Of a stretch of DNA of 51,606 nucleotides, positions 21,883-29,466 are shown piece by piece. Below the pieces are notes generated by a model. It saw only the letters and a list, made by a program, of their open reading frames with translations, was not told where the DNA came from and searched no databases. A program made the position numbers and the translations under genes. Origin of the DNA: Gammaproteobacteria bacterium (GTDB lineage Bacteria > Pseudomonadota > Gammaproteobacteria > Steroidobacterales > PWYM01); the NCBI GenBank assembly GCA_007693855.1, contig RECU01000057.1:1-51606 (forward strand). Direction: 5' to 3'. Each line of letters starts with the position of its first letter. The first letter of the stretch is position 1.

Positions 21883-22704
21883 ATGAGCACGATTCTCGCG
21901 CCCGTGCTGTTCGCGCTATTGCTCTGGTGGTTCAGCACCGGCCTCATTCTCTATCTGGACGGGCTGCCGGAGCGCACCTATCGCTGGAGCCTGTTCGGCG
22001 CCACGCTGGTCGCCCTGCCCTCGCTGTGGGGCATCGTGGCCTTCAGCCAGCAGGACACGCTGGTCGCGACCTACGGGGCCTTCACCTGTGCCCTGCTCTT
22101 CTGGGGTTGGGTCGAGATGAGTTTCCTGCTCGGCTTCATCACCGGCTCACGGCGTGCGGCGCTGCCACCGGGCGCGCGCGGCTGGCGGCGGTTCGGCTAT
22201 GCCTGGCAGGCGCTCTCGCACCATGAGCTGACGCTGTTCGCGGCGCTGCTTACCGTGGTGGCGCTGACCTGGGGTGCGAGCAATCCGGTGGCCTTGTGGA
22301 CGTTCAGCGCGCTGTGGCTGATGCGTCTCAGCACCAAACTGAATATTTTCCTGGGGGTACGAAACCTCAGCGAGAACTGGCTGCCACTGCGCTTGCGTTA
22401 TCTCGAGAGCTATTTCAACCGCAAGCCAATGAACTGGCTGTTTCCCTTTTCCATCACCGCCGCCACTGCCGCGACCTTCCTGGTCTTTCGTGCGGCGCTT
22501 GCGCCGGAGATCCCCGCGCATGAGGCGGCAGGGCTGTTTCTCGTGGGGACGCTGCTGGCGCTGGGCATTATCGAACACTGGTTCCTCGTGCTGCCTGTGA
22601 CCATCGACGCCCTGTTTCGCTGGGGCTTTCGCTCACGCGACCAAGCTCCGAGACCTGGCGAGGGCCAGGCGACGGAGCCGCAGCAGGTCAAGGTCCGAAG
22701 CTGA
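21883..22704 (+). CDS. puhE: Photosynthetic complex assembly protein PuhE (DUF3623)
   Basis: The 273-residue membrane protein has about seven helices and the PuhE features LWWFSTGLILYLDGLPERTY at the N-terminus, FWGWVEMSFLLGFITG in helix 3 and KLNIFLGVRNLSENWLP after helix 5. It moderates bacteriochlorophyll supply and core-complex assembly in Rhodobacter. It is the last gene of the lhaA-puh operon and is followed directly by a large hairpin. Confidence 0.92.
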   Translation: MSTILAPVLFALLLWWFSTGLILYLDGLPERTYRWSLFGATLVALPSLWGIVAFSQQDTLVATYGAFTCALLFWGWVEMSFLLGFITGSRRAALPPGARGWRRFGYAWQALSHHELTLFAALLTVVALTWGASNPVALWTFSALWLMRLSTKLNIFLGVRNLSENWLPLRLRYLESYFNRKPMNWLFPFSITAATAATFLVFRAALAPEIPAHEAAGLFLVGTLLALGIIEHWFLVLPVTIDALFRWGFRSRDQAPRPGEGQATEPQQVKVRS

Positions 22705-22755
22705 GGTCCAACCCTCGGGACGCCGCCGCTGCTGGCGGCATCCCGAGGACCTCAG
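22702..22755 (+). terminator. Large interrupted hairpin after puhE
   Basis: Arms CCTCGGGA-C-GCCGCC and GGCGGC-A-TCCCGAGG pair around a 6-nt loop, with further outer pairing of GAGGT and ACCTC. It starts at the puhE stop and ends just before the convergent gene's stop, so it can serve both strands. There is no clear T-run. Confidence 0.7.
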
Positions 22756-22756
22756 A

Positions 22757-23452
22757 TCAGTCGCTCGCGGTTTTCGTCGGAATATGCAGTGACGAGGACA
22801 GCGGCGCCGCCTTGCCACTCAGCAGGGGTAACCCGAGCTTCGAGGACAGCGGCGCGGGCCCGCGGGAGAGCAGCGGCCACTTCAATTTGCCCGACAAGGG
22901 TGCCGCGCCCGTGGACAGCAGCTTGAGCCCGACCTTGCCCGAGAATGTCCAGCCCGAGTCCGCAAGCTCAGGGATGTTGAGCCGCTCGCAGGTGCGCTTG
23001 CCGCTCCTCGAGAGCACCGGAAGCCCCGCCATCCAGTTCGAGAAGGGTGTGGGATCGCGCAGGATGGTACCGAAGTGTAGGCTTGAACTCATCGGCGCAG
23101 ACTCGTCCCAAGCCATCGGACGATCAGGCGAGGGCTCAAAACCACTCGGCACAGGGTCGCACTCATCCAGCAGGTCTTCGGCGATCAGCCCCATGCCGAT
23201 AGGCGCGCGCACAATCACCAGCCAGTGGCCATCGAGGACCCGCGCGGCGTAGAGGCGCGCCTGGGCGCGGACGACGTAGGCGTCGGCGATCGCCGCCGTC
23301 ACCGTTTCCGTTGCCGCCGCCCCATCGGCAGGCTCTGCTGGAGGCGCGATGAGATCATATTGCCGGACGCCGAAGCCTCGCGCCTGGAGTTTACCGACCG
23401 CCGCTTCGGCGTTGTCGGCGCTGGCATACAGCCTAACGATTGGATGGATCAC
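22757..23452 (-). CDS. GSP17M-like domain protein with C-terminal 16-residue repeats, undescribed
   Basis: The 231-residue protein has an N-terminal domain (about 1-100) resembling GSP17M/DUF1269 stress proteins: IHPIVRLYASADNAEAAVGK, LQARGFGVRQYDLIAP, then VIVRAPIGMGLIAEDLLDE. Residues about 117-231 are built of degenerate 16-residue units with consensus APLSSKLGLPLLSxGx. The clearest units start at 183, 199 and 215, and weaker ones cover 118-182. No signal peptide or membrane helix is seen. GGGAGG lies 7 nt before GTG 23452 but directly against ATG 23458, so the GTG is preferred; ATG 23539 is a longer option. It ends the puc-def gene train of the photosynthesis cluster. I know no described function. 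Confidence 0.65.
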   Translation of the reverse strand: MIHPIVRLYASADNAEAAVGKLQARGFGVRQYDLIAPPAEPADGAAATETVTAAIADAYVVRAQARLYAARVLDGHWLVIVRAPIGMGLIAEDLLDECDPVPSGFEPSPDRPMAWDESAPMSSSLHFGTILRDPTPFSNWMAGLPVLSRSGKRTCERLNIPELADSGWTFSGKVGLKLLSTGAAPLSGKLKWPLLSRGPAPLSSKLGLPLLSGKAAPLSSSLHIPTKTASD

Positions 23453-23582
23453 TGGCATACCTCCCTGCCAAGCAAGATGACTGATGAAATCGGTGGCCTC
23501 GGCGACCGCTGCCGCGGGAAGCGAATACCGCATGAGCATACCGAGGCCCTGAGGGCTTGTGAAGCGATGTTCATGGCGGGGG

Positions 23583-24086
23583 TCATGCCGCGCGCCTCGT
23601 CTGCAGGGCCAGGGCGGCGCGGAAGCGCAGTCGCCCCAGCCATGACAACCGGTCGACGAACAGCCGGCCGTCCAGGTGATCGAGTTCGTGCAGAAGACAG
23701 ACGGCGGCAAGACCCTTGAGCCGCCGTTCGAAGGACTCGCCCTGCAGCGTCTGGGCGCGCACCTTGATCTCGGTGGCACGCCGGACCAGCCCGCTTCGGC
23801 CGGGCACGGACATGCACCGCTCCTCGATCCAGCCCATGCTTGCGCTGGCGAGCACTTCGGGGTTCACGAACACCTCTGGCCGGGTCTTCTTCTCGGAGAC
23901 ATCCATGACCAGGAGCCGGCGGCGCACGTCGACCTGGGGCGCGGACAGCCCAATGGCGGGCTCGGCATACATGGTCTCCAACAGGTCATCGGCAAGTTGT
24001 GCGAGGTCGGCGTCGAAGTCCTCTACCGGCTGCGAAATCAGTCGCAGCCGAGGATCAGGGAAGAGCAACACGTCACGGCGCGCCAT
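23583..24086 (-). CDS. def: Peptide deformylase
   Basis: The 167-residue metalloenzyme removes the formyl group from N-terminal methionine. All three motifs are present: motif 1 GLSAPQ (46-51), motif 2 ERCMS (89-93; usual form EGCLS, the metal ligand Cys91 kept), and motif 3 HELDH (133-137). The Gly-to-Arg change in motif 2 is unusual. GGAGG is 8 nt before ATG 24086. It lies 4 nt after pucC and 66 nt from the end of the LH2 operon's previous gene, so it is probably expressed with the light-harvesting genes. A second, housekeeping def is expected elsewhere. Confidence 0.88.
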   Translation of the reverse strand: MARRDVLLFPDPRLRLISQPVEDFDADLAQLADDLLETMYAEPAIGLSAPQVDVRRRLLVMDVSEKKTRPEVFVNPEVLASASMGWIEERCMSVPGRSGLVRRATEIKVRAQTLQGESFERRLKGLAAVCLLHELDHLDGRLFVDRLSWLGRLRFRAALALQTRRAA

Positions 24087-24090
24087 CTGC

Positions 24091-25569
24091 CTATCCTCCC
24101 CCGGCCCCATGGCCAGTCGGCTGCCGAGCCAGCCCGACGTCGGAGGCCTCCGACGAATCCTGCATCGCGTAACCCCGCAGGCGGCCGACCAGCGGGATGA
24201 TCACGATCACCGTCGCGACAAGAAGAGCGATCTCGACGCCATAGACCACGATATAGCCGGCGGCGGCGCCGCCCAGCCGCAAGCCCCAGTCGGCGCCAAT
24301 GCCGACGGCAGTGATCACATCCCGCGCGATGCCGCTGAAGGCAATCCCAAGCCCCAGTGCCGTCGCCTGCACGGACCCCCACGCCCCGAGTGCAAGGCCA
24401 GATTGCTCACGGGGCGCGAGACGCATGGTGGAGGTCAACGTGCCATGACTGAACAGCGCGGCCCCGAAGCCGATGGCGAAGTTCGCCATGGTGAACAATA
24501 CCGTAGACTCAATCGGCGCCGAGAAAATCACCGCGAGGAACGAGGGGATACCGACAATTGCGCCGACGCTCGCCACCCGCAGTGGATCTACCCCATGGGC
24601 CATGAACCGCGAGGCGAGCGCAAAGCCGATCAAGGTACCCAGGGCGAGGATGGCTGTCAGCCGCGTGGTCTCAGCTACCGTCATGCCCAGGATTTGACCC
24701 CCGTAAGGCTCCAGCAGGATATCGGCCATGCTGAAGGCCAGCGTCCCGATGCCGACGGCGACCAGACTGCGGATGGCGCCTGCGCCGCGACTCATGCGCG
24801 CCCAGGCTTCGCCGAAGGTCAATTGCGGCACCGGCTGGGTCTGCAGGCGACGAGGACGCCGGGTCTCCTGCTTCCACAGCGCGACGACATTCAGCAAGAC
24901 AGCCGCGACCGCGGCACCCTGCACCACCTGGATCAGCCGAGGGGCCGAGAAATCAGCCAACAGGGCCCCAAAAATCAGCGCACTGGCGATCATGCCGAGC
25001 AACAGCATGACATACATCAGCCCCACGACTCTGGGTTGGCTCTCTACCGGCGCGAGGTCGGTCGCCAGCGCGAGTCCCACCGTTTGGACTGTGTGCATTC
25101 CGGCACCTATCAGCAGAAACGATACACCCGCGGCAGCCTGGCCAACCCACGGCGGGTACTCTGCCGCCTGGCCGCCGCCGGCAAGCACCAACAACGCGAA
25201 CGGCATGATCGCCAGGCCACCGAACTGCATCAGTGTTCCGTTCCACATGAAGGGAACGCGACGCCAACCGAGCTCCGAACGATGCTGGTCCGACCGAAAG
25301 CCGATAAAGGCCCGGAAGGGTGCAAAAAGAATGGGAAGCGCGATCATCACGCTGACGAGCGAGGCGGGCACTGACAGCTCGACGATCATTACGCGGTTCA
25401 ACGTGCCCGCGAGCAGCACCAGGCACATGCCGACGGACACTTGGAACAGCGAGAGCCGCAGCAGGCGGCTCAACGGCAGTTCGTCCGTCGCGACGTCGGC
25501 GAACGGCAGGAATCGTGGGCCCAGGTTGACCCACAGCGAAACCGCCTTTCTGGATAAACTTTGCTTCAT
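24091..25569 (-). CDS. pucC: LH2 assembly protein PucC (PucC/LhaA-family MFS)
   Basis: The 492-residue, twelve-helix protein is a close paralogue of LhaA at 18338, sharing RFLPFADVAT, SLFQVSVGMCLVLLAGTLN, LGWRRVPFMWNGTLMQFGGL and DILLEPYGGQILGMTV. Because it follows the LH2-like beta and alpha genes, PucC is the natural assignment. It supports LH2 assembly. ATG 25569 is chosen by alignment with LhaA. A rho-independent terminator sits between the LH2 alpha gene and this start, which would lower its expression relative to the antenna genes. Confidence 0.9.
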   Translation of the reverse strand: MKQSLSRKAVSLWVNLGPRFLPFADVATDELPLSRLLRLSLFQVSVGMCLVLLAGTLNRVMIVELSVPASLVSVMIALPILFAPFRAFIGFRSDQHRSELGWRRVPFMWNGTLMQFGGLAIMPFALLVLAGGGQAAEYPPWVGQAAAGVSFLLIGAGMHTVQTVGLALATDLAPVESQPRVVGLMYVMLLLGMIASALIFGALLADFSAPRLIQVVQGAAVAAVLLNVVALWKQETRRPRRLQTQPVPQLTFGEAWARMSRGAGAIRSLVAVGIGTLAFSMADILLEPYGGQILGMTVAETTRLTAILALGTLIGFALASRFMAHGVDPLRVASVGAIVGIPSFLAVIFSAPIESTVLFTMANFAIGFGAALFSHGTLTSTMRLAPREQSGLALGAWGSVQATALGLGIAFSGIARDVITAVGIGADWGLRLGGAAAGYIVVYGVEIALLVATVIVIIPLVGRLRGYAMQDSSEASDVGLARQPTGHGAGGG

Positions 25570-25589
25570 GATATCCGGACGCAACAGCT

Positions 25590-25622
25590 AAAAAGGGAGC
25601 GGGACCTGGCGATCCCGCTCCC
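25590..25622 (-). terminator. Rho-independent terminator/attenuator between LH2 alpha and pucC
   Basis: On the minus strand a perfect 10-bp stem, GGGAGCGGGA / TCCCGCTCCC, with an 8-nt loop is followed at once by TTTTT. It lies 38 nt after the alpha gene stop and 20 nt before the pucC start. Confidence 0.88.
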
Positions 25623-25660
25623 CGTTCAGCACTCTCTATGTCCAGTCCAGGTGGACGGGT

Positions 25661-25876
25661 TTACGGCGTCATCTCGCGATTGGCCGCCAGCGCTGCATCG
25701 GGCGCTGCCACCTGAGACACCTGAGCGCTGGCGCCGCCTTCAAAGAAGGCAGCCATCCACGTGGTGTTCGAAAGCACCGAGTAGTGGACCAGCAGGGAAA
25801 TGAGCAACACTGTACCGAGGAACAGCGGCAGACCTACCGTGGGCTTGACCACAAGCCAGATTCGAGCTTGGTTCAT
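25661..25876 (-). CDS. pucA: LH2-type light-harvesting alpha polypeptide
   Basis: The 71-residue antenna subunit begins [20 protein letters not shown] and has one transmembrane helix with the bacteriochlorophyll ligand His31. Numbering runs without gaps against Rhodoblastus acidophilus LH2 alpha, whose H31 and Y44-W45 positions are known. Here the sequence reads [11 protein letters not shown], so residues 44 and 45 are both Phe. Loss of those hydrogen bonds shifts B850 to about 820 nm in LH3-type antennas. The 25-residue Ala-rich C-terminal tail is long. It lies 13 nt after the beta gene. Confidence 0.93.
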
Positions 25877-25889
25877 GTTTCAGTCCTCC

Positions 25890-26060
25890 TTAACCGAGCC
25901 ACGGCGAATAAATCCACGCCAACAAGTGGGCAAACAACGCGATCACGAAGAACACGCGGCTGCCATCGATGACGTGCTTGTGAAGCTCCTCGGACTCCGG
26001 CAGGGTCAGGCCGGTCGGCCATACCCGGTTCGGATCGTCTCCGTCTCTCTGATTTTCCAT
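25890..26060 (-). CDS. pucB: LH2-type light-harvesting beta polypeptide
   Basis: The 56-residue subunit matches LH2 beta closely: [20 protein letters not shown] followed by the helix ending [16 protein letters not shown]. His45 is the B850-type ligand, and His27 with Arg35 occupy the positions that shape the B800 pocket in known LH2. The start at ATG 26060 has GGGAG upstream; a longer upstream frame is not needed. It lies 86 nt after pufC, separated by a small hairpin. Confidence 0.92.
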
Positions 26061-26106
26061 TTCACCACTCCCAATTAACACCAAAAATCCCGGACGCCCT
26101 GCGATA

Positions 26107-29256: not shown

Positions 29257-29466
29257 TTACAGCCTTGCGACGTTGTCCTCGGTGCGGGCCACCTGGACGT
29301 CCGGCGCGACGAGCACCGAGGCCGTTGCAGCCGAGCCGCCATCCAGCCAGTTGAACCGATCGGTGCTGAGCAGGATGAAGTGAATGATCAGCGCGAGCGC
29401 AAAAAGAAAGGTGAAGAGCGCAATCAGCACCCTGCGCGGATCGAAAAGCATCCATATACGCCACAT
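29257..29466 (-). CDS. pufA: LH1 alpha polypeptide
   Basis: The 69-residue core-antenna subunit begins [18 protein letters not shown], a standard LH1 alpha N-terminus, and has one transmembrane helix with ligand His29, followed by [10 protein letters not shown]. Its C-terminal ~25 residues ([17 protein letters not shown]...) are probably periplasmic. AGGAG precedes the ATG by 8 nt. It follows pufB by 81 nt. Confidence 0.95.

Follow-up and report, generated by a model that had tools for sequence, protein, structure and literature searches.

The window (the whole stretch of DNA analysed, 51,606 nucleotides) carries the gene of a previously unnamed bacterial protein, here called X, whose small head is folded and whose tail is made up of 16-residue repeats. 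The evidence strongly ties X to LH2 (puc), the outer or peripheral light-harvesting antenna of purple bacteria, and not to puf in general. Because its distribution is LH2-specific, we regard a role for X in LH2 as near certain.

Gene X and its operon

On the minus strand of the window a series of genes runs pufBALMC, pucB, pucA, pucC, def and X, facing puhABCE. The preliminary description had X closing a puc-def train, and this order, with def after the puc genes and X last, is borne out. The features of this region are as follows.

29257-29466, minus strand: pufA, LH1 alpha, distinct from PucA
25890..26084, minus strand: pucB, LH2 beta (NCBIfam antenna beta model, 63 bits; sequence)
25661..25876, minus strand: pucA, LH2 alpha (aligned with puc-type alphas; distinct from LH1 alpha)
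24091..25584, minus strand: pucC, LH2 assembly/BChl-delivery MFS protein (PF03209, E 1e-142)
23583..24110, minus strand: def-like gene of the puc operon, peptide deformylase (PF01327, E 8e-45)
23460..23465, minus strand: Shine-Dalgarno sequence GGGAGG, 7 nt upstream of the X GTG (sequence)
22757..23452, minus strand: gene X, 231 aa with a GTG start, repeat protein associated with LH2 (translation; kept in sister genomes)
22701..22755, no strand assigned: strong hairpin where the ends of X and puhE converge (-44.4 kcal/mol, z -5.4)

The open reading frame of X, given earlier without a strand, is real and its coordinates are exact; it lies on the minus strand, and the plus strand at 22757-23452 has stops in the corresponding frame. 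The gene is single-copy in its own genome, and across its whole length dN/dS is 0.08-0.15 (window versus sister loci). An alternative in-frame ATG two codons before the GTG would lie 1 nt from GGGAGG. The hairpin beyond the gene is a possible shared transcription end for X and puhE, with no U tract.

The antenna pair at 25661-26084 (minus strand) is assigned to LH2 by its sequence and by its position before pucC; NCBIfam names it LH1 (pufB_517_ASD, barely above the cut-off). The LH2 genes lie immediately 3' of pufC. Between pucA and pucC there is a terminator-like hairpin (25594-25623, minus strand) of 13 pairs followed by TTTT, as would be expected if pucBA were expressed differently from (over) pucC.

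The deformylase paralogue at 23583-24110 (minus strand) keeps the GLSAPQ, EERCMS and HELDH motifs. It is a regular member of LH2 operons, and most X operons have it at this position (L051, L052, L053, L054, L055, L070, L113-L118, L140). Alpha-Met1 of PucA can act as a ligand of B800 BChl, and because of this a deformylase dedicated to antenna N-termini is a testable idea. No paper in the literature collection searched names the puc operon together with a peptide deformylase.

The head and tail of protein X

The protein divides into two parts, the second of which contains three clear repeat units.

23138..23452, minus strand: N-terminal domain, residues 1-105, predicted ferredoxin-like alpha/beta (hhalign; AlphaFold2; fold matches)
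22760..23104, minus strand: C-terminal tail, residues 117-231, with some seven degenerate units of 16 residues
22862..22909, minus strand: repeat unit GAAPLSGKLKWPLLSR, residues 182-197 (26.2 bits, profile from other groups)
22814..22861, minus strand: repeat unit GPAPLSSKLGLPLLSG, residues 198-213 (29.9 bits, profile from other groups)
22766..22813, minus strand: repeat unit KAAPLSSSLHIPTKTA, residues 214-229 (15.4 bits, profile from other groups)

The N-terminus had been likened to a GSP17M/DUF1269 domain. The likeness to GSP17M holds at a distance: hhalign of a profile of 16 X-family N-domains against seven ordinary GSP17M-type proteins gives 98.9% probability over 106 columns. A Pfam search with X matched nothing, neither PF11181 (YflT/GSP17M) nor PF06897 (DUF1269), and the alphaproteobacterial cousins of X likewise have no match to PF06897. 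One of these cousins reaches 19.6 bits with PF11181, below the gathering cut-off of 26.2. Searches of NCBIfam, PHROGs and PDB sequences with X returned no usable match, and neither X nor its cousins matched anything in the plasmid collection. Ordinary GSP17M-type proteins are tail-less and most have a Gly-rich hydrophobic insert, which is missing from every X protein aligned. X shares with YflT/GSP17M (PF11181) the topology of the N-domain and a distant profile homology, and differs in the loss of the insert, the gain of the repeat tail, a score below the Pfam threshold and its restriction, among the genomes sampled, to phototrophs with LH2. On these comparisons the head is a diverged, distant YflT/GSP17M-like domain that has lost the insert.

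AlphaFold2 models the N-domain alone with a pLDDT of 84.7. The fold matches of this model are PII, ACT-like proteins and chain D of alternative complex III, with Z of 6-7 (maximum 7.1), and amount to no more than a common ferredoxin-like arrangement; no YflT structure is among the matches listed. For the whole of X, modelled from 3 sequences, pLDDT is 38.7 and the model is unusable. Neither secondary structure nor a TM helix is predicted anywhere in the tail.

Repeats had been described at 183, 199 and 215, and they are confirmed. The units start at 182, 198 and 214, and their scores (26, 30 and 15 bits), obtained with leave-group-out profiles, compare with a 95th percentile of 3.9 bits for the best score in shuffled tails. 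Weaker units start at residues 117 and 166 by the same scoring. A set of 66 units from 16 proteins of the family gives the consensus N-[PA]-[AT]-P-[LF]-S-S-K-[LF]-G-[LM]-P-x-L-[ST]-[RD], of which columns 3-6 fall within the selection pattern and the later columns outside it. Tandem spacing is exactly 16 in most arrays. For non-tandem units multiples of 16 fit weakly (phase-0 P about 0.02; another period fits best), and we do not rely on a strict 16-residue register across distant units.

A tail in which no structure is predicted might be taken for an unselected low-complexity tract, and the preliminary description had itself allowed that the repeat region might prove untranslated. The tail is, however, translated: its dN/dS is 0.07-0.17 (window versus two sister loci), most changes fall on the third position of codons, and the sole internal difference in its length between the window and its sisters is one whole 16-aa unit. 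The motif is conserved between classes, and the indels are unit-exact. A low-complexity tract is already contradicted by these observations, and we give it almost no credence.

Distribution of X and its linkage to puc

Close homologues of X are in two gammaproteobacterial MAGs (L008 and L009), presumably from soda-lake sediment to judge by their sample names. Among 396 genomes of the window's order, 55 have reaction-centre (RC) genes. Profile A1 detected X in 10 of the 396, all ten with RC genes, and profile A2, run on the RC-positive genomes, in 11/55; a twelfth A2 match (G238, E 0.011) sits in an unrelated enzyme and was rejected. Widespread occurrence in non-phototrophs, which would have spoken against the preliminary description, is not seen in this order: tail-bearing X is present in 11 of 55 genomes with RC genes versus 0 of 341 without, the latter having been searched with the narrower A1.

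The association is closer with LH2 alpha (PucA). The profile of LH2 alpha detects PucA in 15 of the 55 RC-positive genomes, among them all 11 with X, and X is in 0 of the 40 that have no PucA match (Fisher P = 1e-8), a correlation that may be inflated by the building of the PucA profile from X-linked operons. The same-genus sister species G002 and G003 have puf genes, and both PucA and X are absent from them. Four LH2-positive genomes of the order have no X. In two (G192 and G372) def is also missing beside pucC; the other two (G335 and G104) are cut at contig ends, and many of the genomes surveyed are fragmented into many contigs.

The wider samples give a similar picture. In 369 genomes sampled across the class there is one strong match besides the window's own, in the phototrophic G651. 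Six of the 48 genomes of its order have PucA, and X is found in the same six (P = 6e-7); one of that order (G794) has an X fragment at a contig edge, then pucC-def. In a sample of 398 genomes across the phylum, X is present in G816 and G1154, and six genomes from a single alphaproteobacterial family carry divergent cousins. The weak class and phylum matches that were read (G565, G420, G413, G432, G802, G1167, G981 and others) are plain, tail-less GSP17M-type proteins, and those in G729 and G580 are chance matches in outer-membrane receptor-like open reading frames.

Could X simply be a general-stress protein of the GSP17M type hitch-hiking in the cluster? The distant homology of the N-domain would allow it, but tail-bearing homologues are found only in LH2 phototrophs, in several orders and two classes, and the ordinary GSP17M-type proteins differ in their want of a tail and, mostly, in their Gly-rich insert. 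We consider this very improbable.

X lies inside or adjoining the puc operon in 23 genomes of two classes, with neighbourhoods called by script using tblastn with the window genes. The arrangements are these.

pucBA-X-pucC-def: G108, G149, G651, G782, G783, G784, G816
X-pucBA-pucC-def: G083, G320, G377, G771, G775
pucBA-pucC-def-X: the window, G001
def-X: G004, with the puc genes on another contig
pucBA-pucC-X: G1154
X-pucC-def: G794
pucB-pucA-pucC-X' (X' a cousin): six alphaproteobacteria, of which G1024 has two tandem X'

X therefore takes several positions within the operon while the linkage is kept, which argues for a functional tie over an inherited neighbourhood. The expectation that homologues occur only beside puf or puc genes comes close to holding. 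The exceptions are the unlinked copies in G011 (two), G024 (two), G377 (a second copy) and G379, all in PucA-positive genomes, and the link is to puc, not to puf generally.

In G011 and G024 (L057 8994-12059, L058 8974-12123) an ATP-grasp-like gene away from puc has an X paralogue on either side, both with 13-residue repeats (LQRKYNWSFGIPR). In G379 (L059 11307-12428) an X-like protein has a YflT-like head followed by about twenty 12-residue repeats (GAISRLSGRVSP). The units of the alphaproteobacterial cousins are longer, at about 25 aa, and their Ser is not always kept; the cousin at L147 6069-7178 has about eight 25-residue repeats (MANWPIPLLSDRKP...FAFPRHAR) and the end SFSRMLGLPTLTAR, and a second cousin gene follows it.

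Possible roles of X in LH2

The explanation that we prefer, and to which we give about an even chance, is that X is an LH2 accessory protein whose tail lies along the ring with about one 16-mer per alpha-beta pair. X would be made together with PucB, PucA and PucC, its N-domain staying on the cytoplasmic side. The extended tail would follow the outer rim of the LH2 ring at its cytoplasmic face, with each unit of about 16 residues (consensus N-P-A-P-L-S-S-K-L-G-L-P-x-L-S-R) contacting about one alpha-beta pair. In this way it might hold or pace the assembly of the ring, and possibly add pigment sites, as does the LH2 gamma ribbon of Rps. palustris. That X physically binds LH2, with one unit to each pair, as well as the membrane side and any pigment binding, is what we infer, and the ribbon mechanism is proposed on the same footing. 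The preliminary description had suggested a repetitive docking or scaffold surface for the antenna. The tie to the antenna is upheld by the finding of tail-bearing homologues only in LH2-encoding phototrophs; docking would be one reading of it.

The LH2 gamma of Rps. palustris forms a ribbon at the ring's cytoplasmic edge, made up of six repeats of 16 residues each (PMC9618040; PDB 7zcu_S), with one unit per alpha-beta pair and each Ser holding a BChl (PMC9618040). The repeat period of X is that of this ribbon, the sole structurally known LH2 gamma ribbon that we found. Gamma (RPA1495; 7zcu_S) and X have in common an association with LH2, an extended chain, 16-residue tandem repeats in a number comparable to the ring size, and a G-x-P-L-[IL] core. 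Yet gamma consists of repeats only (97 aa in the structure), with no YflT-like head where that of X has 105 residues, and unlike X it is reported from Rhodopseudomonas only. The sequence likeness of the two units is not significant (best rotation P = 0.08) and homology of the repeats is not claimed; we therefore say that X would work like gamma, not that it is gamma.

In favour of the ribbon, X tails span 4.8-9.1 units, against reported LH2 rings of seven, eight and nine pairs (PMC9618040). Counting against it, the link of X to LH2 is not universal, the unit length is not constant (12-13 residues in G011, G024 and G379), and the LH2 of Rba. sphaeroides, with its puc1BAC operon, has been solved without such a subunit (PMC8775250). 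A bolder version makes X a second, widespread class of LH2 gamma subunit, its units wrapping the ring one per alpha-beta pair and its conserved Ser acting as ligand of extra BChl; this seems to us rather unlikely.

A transient role as an assembly partner of PucC, with X absent from the finished ring, is nearly as open as the ribbon, though taken by itself we hold it only tentatively. The repeats would imitate the cytoplasmic N-terminus of PucA (xGLPLxLG versus LGLPLLSG) and, while BChl is being loaded, draw in PucC or antenna chains. X is usually encoded beside pucC, a known LH2 assembly factor (PMC4949548), and resembles PucC in sharing its operon and a connection with LH2 assembly, while being, unlike PucC, no membrane transporter. 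Scored with the repeat profile, the PucA N-terminus comes within the best ~200 out of 453,000 positions, but the resemblance is weak after counting the positions tried (about 0.02 for that protein, by our estimate), and we treat the mimicry as a weak lead only. A repeat number near the ring size moreover suggests a stoichiometric role.

The ribbon is compatible with a further proposal, that X is the gammaproteobacterial version of R. capsulatus PucDE. PucDE is LHII gamma, a 14-kDa stabilising polypeptide of R. capsulatus, and like X it is encoded in the puc operon. In Rhodobacter this operon has the order pucBACDE (PMC9231093; PMC4634722), so that the alphaproteobacterial cousins of X, directly 3' of pucC, occupy the place of pucDE. 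The same place is taken by X in G1154, whereas in the window def stands between pucC and X, and unlike pucDE the X of gammaproteobacteria precedes pucB, separates pucA from pucC or follows def. By gene position X is likely to be related to LHII gamma of R. capsulatus; that it is the counterpart of PucDE, judged on the same ground, we consider about as probable as its opposite. The earlier remark that no such protein occurs in characterised clusters needs a caveat to this extent.

In most species alpha, beta and PucC are considered to be all that LH2 requires. A family so tightly tied to LH2 in two proteobacterial classes, and with the repeat period of the gamma ribbon, suggests an overlooked subunit or a ruler of ring assembly, and X probably is either a part of the antenna that had been missing or an aid to its assembly. 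If X were indeed a second gamma, many purple bacteria would have an LH2 larger than the textbook alpha-beta ring. X offers a concrete candidate for questions such as what sets the size of the ring and the number of its pigments.
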